Of a stretch of DNA of 64,000 nucleotides, positions 3,179 to 9,077 are shown piece by piece. Each line of letters begins with the position of its first letter. The stretch's first letter is position 1. Origin of the DNA: Paucibacter sp. DJ2R-2 (GTDB lineage Bacteria > Pseudomonadota > Gammaproteobacteria > Burkholderiales > Burkholderiaceae_C); assembly GCF_025717675.1 (NCBI RefSeq), contig NZ_JAJIRT010000001.1, forward strand, positions 744,001 through 808,000, written 5' to 3'. Under the pieces are notes generated by a model that did no database searches, was not told the DNA's origin, and saw only the letters and a program-made list of their open reading frames with translations. Both the position numbers and the translations under genes were made by a program.

Positions 3179-4495
3179 TCAGCGGCGGACTTCGCCCTGC
3201 CCCAGCACCACCCATTTGAGCGAGCTCAGGCCTTCCAGGCCGACCGGGCCGCGGGCATGGAGCTTGTCGGTGGAGATGCCGATCTCGGCGCCCAGACCGT
3301 ACTCGAAGCCGTCGGCAAAGCGTGTGCTGGCATTGACCATGACGCTGGCCGAATCGACTTCGCGCAGAAAGCGCATGGCATGGGCGTGATTGCTGGTCAG
3401 GATGGCGTCGGTGTGATGCGAGCCGTATCGGTTGATGTGTTCGATGGCCTCATCGAGGCTGTCCACCACCTTGATGCTGAGGATGGGCGCCAGATACTCC
3501 TCGCTCCAATCGGCCTCGGTCGCCGGCTTGATCACGGCGCCAGGGATGGGGCCCAGCAAGGCCAGGCTGCGCGAGCAGCCACGCATCTCCACGCCCTTCT
3601 CGGCCAGCAAGGCGCCGATATGGGGCAGGAAGTCCGCGGCGCTCTCGGCATGGACCAGCAGGGATTCGGTGGCATTGCAGGGGCTGTACTTCTGGGTCTT
3701 GGCGTTCATGACCACGGTCAGGGCCAGGTCGAAGTCCACCTCGGCATCGACATAGCAATGGCAGTTGCCATCGAGGTGTTTGATGACGGGCACCTTGGAC
3801 TCGGCGCTGATGCGTTCGATCAAGCCCTTGCCTCCGCGCGGGATGATCACGTCGACATGCTCTGGCGCCGTGATCAACAGGCCCACCGCAGCGCGGTCGG
3901 TGCTGGCGATCAGCTGCACACCCTCGGCCGGCAGGCCGGCTTCGCGCAGCGCTGCCGCCACCAGCTCGACCAGGGCCAGATTGGAATGAATCGCCTCGGA
4001 ACCGCCGCGCAGGATGCAGGCATTGCCGCTCTTGATGGCCAGGGAGGCGGCCTCGATAGTGACGTTGGGCCGGCTCTCGTAAATCATGCCGAACACACCC
4101 AGGGGCACGCGCATCTGGCCGACGCTGATGCCGCTGGGGCGGCGTTTGAGGCCGCTGATCTCGCCGACCGGGTCGGGCATGGCGGCAATCTGCTCGCAGC
4201 CCTGGGCCACGGTTTCGACCACATCGGGGCTCAGCTTCAGGCGGTCCAGCATGGGGCCATCGAGGCCGGCCGCGGCGGCTGCCTTCAAATCACGGGCGTT
4301 GGCGGCGGCCAAGGCCGGCCCAGCATGGCGCAGGCGCCGGGCCAGGCTCAGCAAGGCCTGGTTTTTGGCGGCAGTGGAGGCCGCAGCCATCAGGCGCGAA
4401 GCCTGACGGGCAGCCTGGCCCACGGTGTTCATATAGGCGGGCAGATCCTTGGCGGCCAAGGCGGCCAGAGGGGAAACGGTGGGTGTCGAGCTCAT
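3179..4495 (-). CDS. proA: glutamate-5-semialdehyde dehydrogenase (gamma-glutamyl phosphate reductase)
   Basis: The 438-residue product matches ProA throughout. It reduces gamma-glutamyl phosphate with NADPH to glutamate semialdehyde, the second step of proline synthesis, in the cytoplasm. The active-site Cys is in SPCNATE, and the family segments [35 protein letters not shown]-like (IKHLDGNCH) and the C-terminal [17 protein letters not shown] are all visible. The ATG at 4495 has GGAG 9 nt upstream; an earlier in-frame ATG at 4561 would add 22 atypical residues and is not chosen. The gene is followed almost immediately by the Ser/Thr kinase. No proB lies in the window. Confidence 0.97.
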
Positions 4496-4794
4496 CCGCT
4501 CATTCTCCGCGATGTGTTCGCAAGCCCCACGAAGGCGGCCTTCGACAGCCCCCCATGCCATTGCTCACGGGTTGAGAAATCGCCAGACGCACAAGGGTTG
4601 CACCCGATTGCCTAGGGCTTGAGATCGCCGCTCGTTTGACGCCACCGTTCATCCCGCTGACCTGCAGATGGTCGCTCCGATCTGGAAGTTCATCGCGGCG
4701 CGCTGTCGCTTCAGCGGCGGAATTTCTACAGTGACCCCATCGACTTTCCACCCCGTGCCGGAGTCGGCACACAGCGCAGCAAAAGGCCCACACC

Positions 4795-5148
4795 ATGAAG
4801 CACTTCAACACCGCACGCACCCTCACCGCCGCCAGCCTGCTGGCACTCGCCGCCTTCGGCGCGCAGGCCGCCGTGCCGAGCAACGAAGAGAATGGCCCGG
4901 TCCGCCAGGTCTGCCCTCAGATCGACAGCAAGATGCAGCAAGCCCTGGACCGCGGCGTTCAGAAGCTCAACAACGGCACCCTGGCCCGCGTCGAATTCAC
5001 CGTCAAGGGCGACAAGATCAGCCAGGTGCGCCAGCAGAATGTCCCGACCGAGATGCGCCGCCAGGTGTACCAAGCCATGCGCGAACTCAAATGCCAGAGC
5101 AATGGCGAACAAGCGCTGGCCTTCAATCTCAATTTGCTGCCGAACTGA
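4795..5148 (+). CDS. small secreted protein of unknown function
   Basis: The 117-residue product has a clear Sec signal peptide (KH..R start, hydrophobic TAASLLALAAFG core, cleavage near AQA-AVP), so it should be periplasmic. The mature part is about 92 residues with two Cys (VCPQ and LKCQ) that could form a disulfide, and a pattern of one helix plus beta strands. I do not recognise a family. It is divergent from proA with a 299-bp gap and ends 58 bp from the convergent SDR gene. Good signal peptide and high-G+C third positions make it a real gene. Confidence 0.75.
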   Translation: MKHFNTARTLTAASLLALAAFGAQAAVPSNEENGPVRQVCPQIDSKMQQALDRGVQKLNNGTLARVEFTVKGDKISQVRQQNVPTEMRRQVYQAMRELKCQSNGEQALAFNLNLLPN

Positions 5149-5172
5149 GCCACGGCAAATCCAAGACGCTGA

Positions 5173-5186
5173 GCTAATGAATTAGC
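5173..5186. other. short perfect inverted repeat between convergent genes
   Basis: The sequence gctaat-ga-attagc is a perfect 6-bp inverted repeat around a 2-bp centre, lying between the convergent stops of the small secreted protein and the SDR gene. It is AT-rich in a GC-rich setting. It is too small for a firm terminator call and could equally be a protein site. Confidence 0.3.
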
Positions 5187-5206
5187 CTGGCGCCTTGATC
5201 AAAACA

Positions 5207-5944
5207 CTAGAACTGGACATGGGCGGTCGAACCGCCATCGACATACCAGTTGGCGCCGGCCACAAAGCTGGCCGCCGGGCTGGAGACAAAGCAGGCCACC
5301 CGGGCGATTTCGTCCGGGCGGGCCAGCCGCTGCAGCGGGTTGCGTTGCAGCACCCGCGCATAGAGCTCGGGCTCCTGCTCCTGGACACGACCCCAGAGGC
5401 CACCTGCCACCCAGGTGTCTCCCGGCGAGACCGTGTTGACACGCACCTCCGGCAGAACGCGTGCCGATAGCGATTTCATGTAGTGCGCCAGGGCCGCCTT
5501 GGCGGCGCCATACGCCGCGGAGTTCGGTGCCGCCAGCGACCCGGCCTTGGACCCGATATAGGTGAGGGCGCCATGCTTGGAACGACGCAGCAGCGGCAGG
5601 GCGGCTTCGGCACAGCGCACGGTCGCACGCAGATCCACGTCCAGCGCTTGCGACCAGTCGCTCGACAGGGCGCTGACATTGAGCACCAGGATGTCCAGCG
5701 TGCCCAATTCTTCCAGCCAGGCCTCAAAGGCCCCGGGCTGGCAGACATCGAGTGCTCGGGCCTGCAGCGTGCCGGGCAGACCGGCCGATTGCAGCTCGGC
5801 CAGACAGGCCTGCAAACGCTCCGGCTGGCGGGCACAGAAGGCCACCTCGCAGCCCTCGGCCGCGAGGGCACGCACGATGGCGGCGCCAATACCTGCCGAT
5901 CCACCGGTCACCACGGCCCTCAAGCCTTTCAGTCCCAGATCCAT
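5207..5944 (-). CDS. short-chain dehydrogenase/reductase family oxidoreductase
   Basis: A 245-residue classical SDR, expected to be a cytoplasmic NAD(P)-dependent alcohol/ketone oxidoreductase of unknown substrate. The cofactor-binding TGGSAGIG motif is near residue 14, a catalytic Ser lies in the YIGSKAG strand, and the YGAAK (YxxxK) catalytic pair follows. LNVS replaces the usual NNAG motif, a common variation. The ATG at 5944 has GGGGAG about 6 nt upstream; a GTG at 5950 is possible. It is divergent from the BlaI-type repressor, and the repressor operator at 6064-6089 lies between them, so shared control is possible. Confidence 0.9.
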   Translation of the reverse strand: MDLGLKGLRAVVTGGSAGIGAAIVRALAAEGCEVAFCARQPERLQACLAELQSAGLPGTLQARALDVCQPGAFEAWLEELGTLDILVLNVSALSSDWSQALDVDLRATVRCAEAALPLLRRSKHGALTYIGSKAGSLAAPNSAAYGAAKAALAHYMKSLSARVLPEVRVNTVSPGDTWVAGGLWGRVQEQEPELYARVLQRNPLQRLARPDEIARVACFVSSPAASFVAGANWYVDGGSTAHVQF

Positions 5945-6063
5945 GCGCACTCCCCAGCTTCAAATGCCGCGGCATGCGGCCTGCTGGCGCCATTCTGTGC
6001 CAGGTCGCAAGCCCGCCGGTACGCGCAGCGCACCAAGCCGCTTGCGCGGTTCGCAGCACTCAA

Positions 6064-6089
6064 CTACATTTGTAGTACGACACCTGTAG
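6064..6089. promoter_or_regulatory. tandem BlaI/MecI/CopY-type operator
   Basis: CTACA-TT-TGTAG at 6064-6075 is a perfect 5+5 inverted repeat containing the TACA-N2-TGTA core known for BlaI/CopY repressors. A second copy, CGACA-CC-TGTAG at 6078-6089, has one mismatch and is centred 14 bp downstream. Both sit 15-40 bp before the repressor start, inside the gap to the divergent SDR gene. This predicts autorepression of blaI-M56 and perhaps control of the SDR gene. The assignment is by motif and position, not by experiment. Confidence 0.8.
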
Positions 6090-6103
6090 TAGAGACCAAG
6101 TCC

Positions 6104-6520
6104 ATGTCCGAAGACAAAAACGAACTGAGCCTGAGCGAGCTGCAGCTGAGCCTGATGCGCGTGCTCTGGCAGCGCGGCCAGGCCAGCACGGCCGAGGTGG
6201 CCGAAGCCTTGCGCGCCGAAGGCCGGCCCCTGGCCCACACCACCGTGGCCACCTTGCTGCAGCGCCTGGAAAAACGCGGCCTGCTGGCCTGCGATCGCGA
6301 TGCCCGCGCTTTGGTCTACCGCCCCTGCGTGTCCGAACCCGAGGTGCAGAAGTCCATGGTCAGCGGCCTGCTGTCCAGCCTGTTCGCTGGCAAGGCCAGC
6401 GCCCTGCTCAGCCATCTGCTGAAAGCCGGCGACATCGCCGACGAGGACATGGCACAAATGCGCCGCCTACTGGCCAAGGGCAGCCCGGCCAAGAACAGCA
6501 AGGATGGCGGCCATGACTGA
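6104..6520 (+). CDS. BlaI/MecI/CopY family transcriptional repressor
   Basis: The 138-residue protein has the penicillinase-repressor winged helix (residues about 8-80: LSELQLSLMRVLWQRG, then STAEVAEAL and HTTVATLLQRLEKRGLL as the recognition region) and a C-terminal dimerisation helix set with VSGLLSSLFAG. Such repressors bind TACA-N2-TGTA sites as dimers and are inactivated when the partner M56 protease is triggered. Here two matching operator copies lie just upstream and the M56 gene overlaps its 3' end, which is the classic arrangement. The final residues are Lys/Gly/Asp-rich. The start at 6104 is the first ATG in frame after the operator. Confidence 0.93.
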   Translation: MSEDKNELSLSELQLSLMRVLWQRGQASTAEVAEALRAEGRPLAHTTVATLLQRLEKRGLLACDRDARALVYRPCVSEPEVQKSMVSGLLSSLFAGKASALLSHLLKAGDIADEDMAQMRRLLAKGSPAKNSKDGGHD

Positions 6521-9077
6521 GCTCCTCAGCTTCAACGGCCCCCTGCTGCTGAGTATCCTCAGCAGCGGCCTGCTCAACTACCTGCTGCACAGCAGCCTGC
6601 TGCTGTCCGGTGCCTGGCTGATCGAGCGCAGCGCCCACCTGCGGCCGCGCCTGGCCGCGCATCGCGAAACGCTGTGGCGCCTGGCTTTTTTCGGCCCGGT
6701 GCTGACGGCCGGCCTGGCCACGCTGCTGAGTTGGAGTCCGGCGCCGACTCCGCCGGAGGCCGCGCCGTCTGCGCTTGCGAGCACACAGATCGAAGACCGA
6801 GCCCTCCTTGCTCCGCGCGAGGTGCCGTCTGCCACACCGGTACGTGAACTCGCGCCCACCGCAAACCCGGTGATTCACGTGCAGAAGCCGCCGCAAGCAC
6901 CACGCCAGCGACTGCAACTGGCCCCCGAAGCCAGCGCCGCCGTGGCTGCCCTGGCGGCGGCCTGGGCGCTGTTGGCCGGGCTGGGCCTGCTGGCCACCGG
7001 CCTGGCCTGGTGGCGGCTGCGTGTGCAGGCTCGCCGTCTGCCGCGCCTGGACGATGCCGATCTGCACGGCTGCCTGCAGACGCTGGCCCGGTCCGCTGGC
7101 CTGCCGACCCCGCCTCTGCGGCTCAGCCGCGCTGAGTGGTCCAGCCCACTGATCGCACCGGGCGGCGCCATCTGCCTGCCCGCCTGGGCCCTGCAGCTGC
7201 CTCATGCCCAACGCGAGGCCGTGCTGGCCCATGAACTGGCGCATTTGCGTCGGCGCGACCCTGCCTGGCGCCTGGCCGCCCAGTTGCTGAACCAGCTGGC
7301 CTGGCTGCAGCCCCTGAACCGCCTGGCCCTGAGCCGGCTCGATGCCCTGGCCGAACAAGCCTGCGACGCCTGGGCCACCGCCCGACCCAGCGATGCCGCC
7401 CGGGAGCAGGCGCGCCGCGCCCTGGCGGAAAGCCTGTATCGCTGTGCCCAAGAGCTGCAGCAGGCAGCGCGCCCGGCGCGGCGCCTGCAGCTGCTGAGCC
7501 GGATGGCGGCCACCGGCCGCTCGCCCCTGCTGGCCCGCATCGAAGCATTGATGAAACCTGCCCCCACCCCGCAAGGAGACCCAATCATGAGCCCCAACCC
7601 TGAGCCCTCCACCGCCCTGCCCCCACCCGAACTCTGGCGCAAGCGCCTGCTGGTCGGCGGCCTGACGCTGTGCGTCCTGGCCCTGCCCTTGCTGGGTGTG
7701 GGCCACAGCCAGCCCCTGGACTTGAGCCGCCTGCAGCACCTGGGCGAGCAATTCGAACTGCATCTGGGCGTGGGCTCGGCGTCCAGCATCCGCATCCGCA
7801 ACAGCAGCGCCTCGCAGAGTCTGGACATCCGCCTCAGCGGCCAGATGCGCTTCAACGCCGACCAGACCGAGCTCGAAAGCCTCAGCAAGGGCCGACTGGT
7901 GATCGACGAGCAGCGCAGCGGCTGGCACCGGCGCGCGATCTACGAACCCGGCGAGAACGGCGGGGCACCGCGCCTGAGCTACAGCCTGGACGGCAAGGAG
8001 CAGGCGCCGGACGCCGAAGGCCAGGCCTGGCTACGCGAACGCATGGCCCTGGCCGGCGAGAGCCTGGAAGGCAGCGACAAGCGCGTCCAGAACCTGCTGG
8101 CGCAAGGCGGGGTGGCACGCGTGCTGGCCGACATCCAGGCGCCGAACATCGAAGATCATCGCCGCCGCAGCCGCGTCCAGGCCCTGCTCAAGCAAGGCCC
8201 GCAGAGCGAGAGCACCTTGCAAGCCCTGATCCGTGTCAATGAAGGCATGGACTCGGATTTCGAACGTCGCCAGCTGCTGCAAAGCCTGATCGAGAAGCAG
8301 ACCTTGAGCCCGGCCCTGCAAGCCCAGTTGCTGCAAAGCCTGCACAACTTGAGCTCGGACTTCGAGCGCCGCCAGGTGCTAGAGACCCTGTCCGCCACGC
8401 TCAGCGCGGAGCCTGCCACGCTGCAGGCCTGGCTGCAGGCGGTGGACGGCATGGACTCGGACTTTGAAAAGCGCAGCGCCATCGTCGACATCGTCGAGCG
8501 GCAGTCGCCCGCGAGCGGCCTGCCCACCTTGGCTGCAGCCCTGCAGGCCAGCCTCGGCCTGAGTTCCGACTTCGAGCACCGCAGCGCCCTGGAGGCCGTG
8601 GCCCAGAAGCTGCCGCGTCAGACTGCGCTGGACGCGCCGGCCGAGGCGGCGCTCAAAGCCTACAGCGAATCGGCCCGCCGCATCGGCAGCGACTTCGAAC
8701 GCCGCATGGCCTTGAGCGCCCTGCTGGAAGCCGGCGTGCACCAGAAGGCCGCGCTGCTGGGCGTACTCGATGCGACACGCAGCATCGACTCCGATTTCGA
8801 CCGGGCTGAATTGCTCAGCGCCTTGGCCGCGCACCTGCCGGCCGATGCCGAGCTGGTGGCCAGTTATCGCCAGGCAGCCCGAGGCCTGAGCGAGCATGAG
8901 CGCGGCAAGGTCGAGGCCGCACTCGACCCGGTGATGGACCGCCTGGCCAAGGCCGTGCCCGCCCCCGCCGCCCCGGCCGCACTGGCCACGCCCGCCAAAG
9001 CCGCCCCAGCTGCCGCCAGCACGCACCTCAAGCCGCCCAGCCCGCCGCGCCCACCGGCCGCCCCCTCGCTGCCCTGA
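6513..9077 (+). CDS. BlaR1-like M56 membrane metallopeptidase with SDFERR repeats
   Basis: An 854-residue integral membrane peptidase. N-terminal hydrophobic segments flank a cytosolic zinc-peptidase domain with HELAH at 240-244 and a likely third ligand in AEQACD near E281. Another membrane segment near 380-398 leads to a long outer part. Instead of the penicillin-binding sensor of BlaR1 there is a DUF4097-like beta region and then six repeats centred on SDFERR-type motifs (near 579, 613, 647, 683, 724, 758), followed by a Pro/Ala-rich tail. It probably cleaves or inactivates the BlaI-type repressor encoded upstream when the outer domain senses a signal. The ATG at 6513 has AAGGA 8 nt upstream and overlaps the blaI stop by 8 bp; an ATG at 6504 is also in frame. 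Confidence 0.9.
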   Translation: MTELLSFNGPLLLSILSSGLLNYLLHSSLLLSGAWLIERSAHLRPRLAAHRETLWRLAFFGPVLTAGLATLLSWSPAPTPPEAAPSALASTQIEDRALLAPREVPSATPVRELAPTANPVIHVQKPPQAPRQRLQLAPEASAAVAALAAAWALLAGLGLLATGLAWWRLRVQARRLPRLDDADLHGCLQTLARSAGLPTPPLRLSRAEWSSPLIAPGGAICLPAWALQLPHAQREAVLAHELAHLRRRDPAWRLAAQLLNQLAWLQPLNRLALSRLDALAEQACDAWATARPSDAAREQARRALAESLYRCAQELQQAARPARRLQLLSRMAATGRSPLLARIEALMKPAPTPQGDPIMSPNPEPSTALPPPELWRKRLLVGGLTLCVLALPLLGVGHSQPLDLSRLQHLGEQFELHLGVGSASSIRIRNSSASQSLDIRLSGQMRFNADQTELESLSKGRLVIDEQRSGWHRRAIYEPGENGGAPRLSYSLDGKEQAPDAEGQAWLRERMALAGESLEGSDKRVQNLLAQGGVARVLADIQAPNIEDHRRRSRVQALLKQGPQSESTLQALIRVNEGMDSDFERRQLLQSLIEKQTLSPALQAQLLQSLHNLSSDFERRQVLETLSATLSAEPATLQAWLQAVDGMDSDFEKRSAIVDIVERQSPASGLPTLAAALQASLGLSSDFEHRSALEAVAQKLPRQTALDAPAEAALKAYSESARRIGSDFERRMALSALLEAGVHQKAALLGVLDATRSIDSDFDRAELLSALAAHLPADAELVASYRQAARGLSEHERGKVEAALDPVMDRLAKAVPAPAAPAALATPAKAAPAAASTHLKPPSPPRPPAAPSLP
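8241..8840 (+). repeat. six protein-level repeats with SDFERR core inside the M56 gene
   Basis: The motif [MLI][DSG]SDFE[RKH]R recurs with its first residue encoded at 8247, 8349, 8451, 8559, 8682 and 8784. Spacings are 34, 34, 36, 41 and 34 codons. The DNA copies have diverged, so this is an old, selected protein repeat and not a recent DNA duplication. A 34-residue period with conserved Leu/Ala helix positions suggests a helical solenoid. Confidence 0.85.

Follow-up and report, generated by a model that had tools for sequence, protein, structure and literature searches.

A BlaI-M56 gene pair in Paucibacter with a predicted beta domain and helical solenoid in place of the penicillin-binding sensor

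Proteases of the BlaR1 type are chiefly known for sensing beta-lactams, and a gene of this type in Paucibacter sp. DJ2R-2 that lacks a recognisable penicillin-binding domain raises the question of what such a protein senses and which genes it controls. The gene lies beside a blaI repressor gene in a 64,000-nucleotide stretch of the genome (NZ_JAJIRT010000001.1, positions 744,001 to 808,000), hereafter the window; coordinates are window positions, and residues of the M56 protein are counted from the ATG at 6504 unless stated otherwise. The pair is best filed as a protease-repressor system of known kind, in which the sensor module and the operator findings are new. We consider it reasonably probable that the two genes form an autoregulated BlaI-M56 switch that senses the cell envelope and whose periplasmic beta domain and solenoid replace the penicillin-binding domain.

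Both genes score above the curated Pfam cut-offs, the repressor with 98.9 bits against PF03965 (cut-off 22.6) and its partner with 58.6 bits against Peptidase_M56 (PF05569; cut-off 31, E 7.7e-16, residues 112-315). An original prediction, made from the sequence without database searches, had described a HELAH protease at 6513-9077 overlapping a BlaI repressor gene. Frames, families and the motif at residues 243-247 confirm the overlapping pair and the stop at 9077; a start at 6513 is possible (overlap of 8 nt), but the ATG at 6504 is equally open and gives 857 residues (overlap of 17 nt). The five defining residues of the HExxH and ExxxD motifs do not vary among ten aligned full-length proteins, that of the window included. 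The first histidine precedes the glutamate of the second motif by 41 residues (H243-E284), the same distance as between H201 and E242 of BlaR1, which are zinc-site residues of the S. aureus protein (PMC9834060). The gene order recurs as well, with blaI directly upstream of the M56-solenoid gene in 42 of 42 loci with readable upstream DNA. These comprise three from the window genus (the window and two relatives), nine others (L015, L023, L025-L031), 12 of 13 further loci from the family of genome G708 (L156 is cut by a contig end) and 18 from the order of genome G617, where blaI was inspected in 18 of 24 genomes and all 24 have HExxH. Two of these loci, L100 and L101, show only a weak blaI match (30-32%). 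In the Dokdonella metagenome-assembled genome (MAG) that holds L023, parts of the blaI match lie in two different frames (about 2481-2891), through either a real break or an assembly error.

The original prediction also held that the outer part has no penicillin-binding domain, and none is recognised in the window protein by Pfam. The sole SxxK of the sensor (SLSK) is shared by one of 17 aligned sequences, K[TS]G is absent from the window sensor, and the NCBIfam model blaR1_generic reaches 13.8 bits vs a cut-off of 400. A structural match to a known ligand- or penicillin-binding fold, which was to count against the prediction, does not occur among the matches listed by Foldseek or VIA, an absence from the listed rows and not an exclusion. 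The sensor of BlaR1 itself resembles class D beta-lactamases (PMC7593790). Because the zinc site matches that of BlaR1 and the conserved penicillin-binding SxxK and K[TS]G are missing, the gene is a BlaR1-type M56 peptidase without the defining domain of the beta-lactam sensor, and its inducer is presumably not a beta-lactam.

In that position the protein carries six SDFE-type motifs, at residues 584, 618, 652, 688, 729 and 763 (spacing 34, 34, 36, 41 and 34). Six repeats of 34-41 residues had been predicted, and stand; the predicted constant core SDFE[RKH]R is exact in five of them, but the last reads SDFDRA. Of 20,000 shuffles of the protein, 82 contained a single SDF[ED] and none contained more, so that the repeat count is far beyond chance. 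Across the 17-sequence alignment, motif position one is Ser or Gly in 101 of 102 cells and position four Glu or Asp in 100 of 102, and weaker units flank the six repeats (EDHRRR before, SEHERG after). Since the repeats are mutually only 15-38% identical (amino acids, ungapped 34-residue units) and use different codons, they are old and not a recent DNA duplication. When each window repeat was compared with its counterpart in relatives, diagonal means of 38-49% differed weakly from off-diagonal values of 37-45%, and for this reason no position-specific repeats are claimed. Repeat artefact or decay was dropped as an explanation, the motif being conserved across families and the codons differing. 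Two further observations concern this part of the protein. A C-terminal tail, LKPPSPPRPPAAPSLP (9027-9074), is the same in all three genus members and the stretch preceding it varies. At L034 (G640:C2:159000-169500; about 4050-4253 and 4217-6736) the M56-solenoid frame ends after the fifth repeat and continues in another frame, the gene being interrupted.

A helical solenoid, proposed earlier from the repeat period, is supported by a confident AlphaFold2 model of the outer part, built from an 11-sequence alignment (pLDDT 89.3, pTM 0.81, the solenoid block mostly >90). In sensor-model numbering, a poorly predicted linker is followed by five strands (within 31-98), one long helix and helix pairs to 417; the beta domain ahead of the repeats and the weaker unit at each end had been missed before. 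The motif serines (187, 221, 255, 291, 332 and 366) directly precede the helix starts (188, 222, 256, 292, 333 and 367) and form the helix N-cap in six of six repeats of the model. Serine with glutamate three residues on (S-x-x-E) is a capping box, and because the motif places these residues in just this way, its extreme conservation is explained as mainly structural. The structure prediction that had been proposed for the repeat region thus gave a beta domain and a HEAT-like solenoid, and the listed matches (Foldseek, VIA) are generic alpha-solenoids of the importin and PP2A kind. The best in VIA is Kap121, with Z 14.6 and an rmsd of 6.8 over 273 residues, values near those that generic helical repeats attain.

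Sequence comparison places the module in no described family. For the sensor module no Pfam or NCBIfam model was above cut-off; Pfam gave nothing at E up to 1 in residues 400-857, and the 23 Pfam families listed at this threshold across 17 members include no HEAT, ARM or TPR profile. NCBIfam returned just BREX_BrxC for residues 400-857 of the window protein (15.6 bits vs a cut-off of 400); this was also its best hit to the sensor across the 17 members, seen in three of them with at best E 0.0024 and 16 bits vs 400, and was dismissed as noise. Sequence searches of the PDB found no relative of the solenoid, and a ten-protein full-length profile found BlaR1 weakly (E 0.07-0.08, protease part), below unrelated aldolases (0.008). 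No description of this solenoid domain was found in the literature, of which the search reached few subscription papers. In the full-length model (pLDDT 75.1, pTM 0.47) the protease lies between long helices three and four, as in BlaR1, and Foldseek listed BlaR1 (8exp_A) for this model at rank 16 (E 0.018, probability 0.99).

Upstream of blaI stand two conserved palindromes, which are putative operators (Table 1). The 14-bp pattern ACKACANNTGTMGT has exactly two matches in the 5.8-Mb genome, both upstream of blaI, and one match in reversed form as a control; it was drawn from operators 1 and 2, so that recovering both is expected and the informative part is that there are no further sites. The pattern CTACANNTGTAG occurs once (reversed control 23), and no enrichment figure is given because the control is not composition-matched. 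Among ten genomes of named relatives, CTACANNTGTAG is single and at the system's own promoter in seven (7 of 7 Lysobacterales with a strict site). It is absent from Arenimonas, which has one mismatch in each palindrome, and from the MAG with a stand-alone solenoid. ACKACANNTGTMGT was matched in seven of ten genomes (own included), always at the system's own promoter. Of 18 loci in the order of G617, 16 have two operator copies (<=2 mismatches), 18-24 bp apart, about the beginning of the blaI frame, positions being relative to the frame, as true start codons are not fixed. Strict sites are present there in 14 of 15 genomes, closely paired ones at blaI only (14 of 14), and 5 of the 14 have no other strict site. 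Of 22 loci from beta- and gammaproteobacteria, 19 (all but L028, L162 and L158) have TTG or TTA followed by TACAnn at a distance of exactly 17 nt, an arrangement found at 1.1% of positions in window 5001-7000; this criterion was chosen after inspecting the sequences. Because the -35 element keeps this fixed distance, the -10 box most likely lies under operator 1. A ACTTYCGGCCTG-like stretch was also seen just ahead of the -35 box in most of L023-L031 and L151-L163, and not in the window. The operators, the strict sites at the own promoter only, and the stand-alone and M19-linked forms described below had not been seen in the original prediction.

The computed gene pair, catalytic residues, predicted fold, operators and site counts can be joined in one scheme. 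BlaI dimers would bind the two adjacent palindromes upstream of blaI, and BlaI on operator 1 would cover the -10 box and keep the blaI-M56 operon off. By analogy with BlaR1, whose protease faces the cytoplasm and cleaves BlaI directly (PMC9834060), the M56 protein would sit in the inner membrane through four helices, its zinc protease cytoplasmic and its beta domain and solenoid periplasmic. On the same analogy, a ligand-bound M56 protein would become an active protease and cleave BlaI, lifting repression, with the signal passing inward from the solenoid. HEAT-type solenoids usually bind polymers, and the ligand would for that reason most likely be a protein, a peptide or a cell-wall peptide or fragment. 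Since the only strict operators found sit at the own operon, the output would be mainly more receptor-protease, plus the M19 dipeptidase where present.

Table 1. Features of the blaI-M56 locus (window positions)
Feature	Position	Strand	Basis or remark
Probable promoter: -35 TTGCGC (6042-6047), 17-nt spacer, -10 TACATT (6065-6070) inside operator 1	6042..6070	+	Conserved -35/operator distance
Operator 1 (putative), ACTACATTTGTAGT	6063..6076	+	Perfect CTACANNTGTAG palindrome, sole such site in own genome; conserved in relatives
Operator 2 (putative), ACGACACCTGTAGT, adjoining operator 1	6077..6090	+	The two ACKACANNTGTMGT sites in own genome are operators 1 and 2
blaI, BlaI/MecI/CopY-type repressor, 138 aa	6104..6520	+	Pfam Penicillinase_R (PF03965), E 2.9e-28
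M56 peptidase (857 aa) with predicted beta domain and solenoid	6504..9077	+	Open frame, Peptidase_M56 match
Predicted membrane helices 1-3 (6537-6632, 6654-6731, 6927-7037)	6537..7037	+	Model helices 9-40, 48-73, 139-175; placement by BlaR1 analogy
Gluzincin active site: HELAH (H243, E244, H247), ExxxD (E284, D288)	7230..7367	+	Conserved residues, BlaR1 motifs and spacing
Predicted membrane helix 4	7626..7679	+	Full-length model helix 372-389
Small five-stranded beta domain (predicted)	7785..7988	+	Strands in 31-98 of sensor model; periplasmic if the topology is that of BlaR1
Alpha solenoid of two-helix units (predicted)	8013..8945	+	Helices in 107-417 of sensor model
Six SDFE-type motifs, starts 8253, 8355, 8457, 8565, 8688, 8790	8253..8807	+	Sequence; each Ser directly before a helix

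The module is rare and patchy. Of 58 further genomes close to that of the window, just two encode the whole protein (81-84% identical), and both belong to the group of 17 others from its genus; the MAG Burkholderiales bacterium PBB2 is among these genus relatives. Profile sampling covered Pseudomonadota, and with the own genome counted the sensor profile matched 2 genomes in a sample of 274 from the class and 6 in one of 398 from the phylum. With centre genomes counted, it matched 21 of 147 genomes in the family of G708, which by matching coordinates takes in the Dokdonella and Tahibacter loci (Rhodanobacteraceae in the NCBI taxonomy). The order of G617 gave 24 of 147 and that of genome G687 15 of 150. 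The last two groups, of the window's phylum and another class, are probably alphaproteobacterial, for G687 because the best plasmid matches of a neighbour protein come from Methylobacterium, Sinorhizobium and Ruegeria. A pattern scan of genome contigs (IGSDFERR and one other) gave 10 loci, including Dokdonella, Tahibacter, Arenimonas and a betaproteobacterial MAG. Recurrence of the motif in homologues, the failure of which was to count against the original prediction, is established for Rhodanobacteraceae and for the probable alphaproteobacteria. No relative of the full window protein was found in viral contigs or plasmids; with the relative L033 as query, plasmids yielded a single record, in Listeria, for the M56 part (28% over 20% of the query).

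Gene neighbourhoods vary between these groups. In the window, the neighbours of the M56 gene that have an assignment encode a short-chain dehydrogenase and a membrane transporter. A Peptidase_M19 membrane dipeptidase gene follows the M56 gene in 10 of the 18 probable alphaproteobacterial loci of the G617 order and was not found in the other eight; enzymes of the M19 family cleave L,D-dipeptides and carbapenems. A stand-alone solenoid without HExxH is encoded at L014, L018 and L024 and, in the order of G687, in those 14 of the 15 genomes whose frame could be recovered (269-579 codons), and the original role of the solenoid therefore need not be signalling. In the G687 group (L139-L150) these stand-alone genes often adjoin an AFG1-like ATPase gene (its cluster in 9 of 13 loci), near an arsR-like gene; the neighbours, which also include a sodium:solute symporter, gave no clear functional hint. 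At L024:2100-5149 the stand-alone solenoid is probably secreted; its gene faces a PF00144 serine-hydrolase gene head to head and has an HlyD-type gene nearby. The divergent L100 and L101 have the same beta domain, about two SDYE units and then a short repeat with a PTEEELE-like core, and their blaI promoters carry ACTAAAAAATTAGT in place of the usual operator. A phage-defence role was dropped for want of support; PADLOC returned nothing for the M56 protein and weak matches for BlaI.

Several observations weigh against the autoregulated switch. Extra sites occur in relatives: one CTACANNTGTAG site elsewhere in PBB2, one additional ACKACANNTGTMGT site in genome G837, and single strict sites in 9 of 14 genomes of the G617 order. 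The operator is absent at L100 and L101. Strict patterns miss weaker or half sites, to which BlaI may bind elsewhere, and a generic sigma-70 promoter and terminator scan found nothing at this locus, missing the promoter proposed here. The full-length model has only moderate confidence, the structural matches of the solenoid are generic, and the solenoid is also known without M56. The switch is proposed from sequences and models.

Some of this evidence would also fit other explanations. It is possible, if unlikely, that the solenoid serves a quality-control protease of the envelope as a scaffold or as an arm for capturing substrates, with BlaI as a feedback gauge and no dedicated small ligand, the active protease cutting BlaI so that more protease is made. 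Paired strict operators at the own promoter only, stand-alone solenoids without M56 and the HEAT-like predicted fold are all compatible with such a protease, but the catalytic domain of BlaR1 faces the cytoplasm (PMC9834060), the solenoid would be periplasmic, and no client is known. Alternatively, the system may sense peptidoglycan breakdown products, and beta-lactams just indirectly, with the solenoid or BlaI reading cell-wall peptides that M19 clears. We think this improbable; it is nonetheless a serious rival because B. licheniformis BlaI leaves its operator on binding a cell-wall dipeptide (PMC3305447) and because of the M19 neighbour, to which the PF00144 gene beside one stand-alone solenoid may be added. 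However, M19 was not found in 8 of those 18 loci, the neighbours in the window are of other kinds, and PF00144 is a very broad family. A conventional beta-lactam sensor with an overlooked binding site is highly improbable, for although the BlaI and M56 halves are of bla type, the non-conserved SLSK, the lack of K[TS]G, the blaR1_generic score, the predicted beta and solenoid fold and the absence of strict operators at other genes of the own genome all speak against it.

Compared with known systems, the autoregulated switch that we favour shares with BlaR1/MecR1 and BlaI/MecI of S. aureus and B. licheniformis a repressor, an M56 membrane gluzincin with HExxH and ExxxD at equal spacing, and a C-terminal domain past the last membrane helix. 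Its putative operators are of the TACAnnTGTA type, the known BlaI/MecI consensus. It differs in its beta domain and solenoid, in having strict operators at its own promoter only, and in that no beta-lactamase or penicillin-binding protein target was found by strict patterns, which leave weaker sites open. M56 peptidases with a short C-terminus also stand beside BlaI-like genes; one such second pair lies in the own genome (L001, G000:C6 near 135143), but it lacks SDFE repeats and its BlaI shows 35% identity over 97 residues. The predicted two-helix array resembles and aligns to HEAT/ARM alpha-solenoids (importins, the PP2A A subunit, VPS35), whereas the sensor has no sequence match in Pfam, and the likeness may be one of general arrangement only.

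The group thus keeps the protease and the repressor of the bla systems and swaps the sensor for a solenoid without a Pfam or NCBIfam match above cut-off. With a defined promoter, operator and predicted ligand-binding arm, the question of what other BlaI-M56 pairs sense becomes testable, and the M19 dipeptidase neighbour in some relatives is a lead toward peptide or cell-wall chemistry. More tentatively, and with some doubt on our part, the loop may be closed, with no regulon beyond its own operon and with a transmembrane protease that acts as sensor and effector through a periplasmic HEAT-like capture arm. If this were true, these bacteria would set the amount of an envelope protease through the protease itself, which would destroy its repressor once its arm is occupied.

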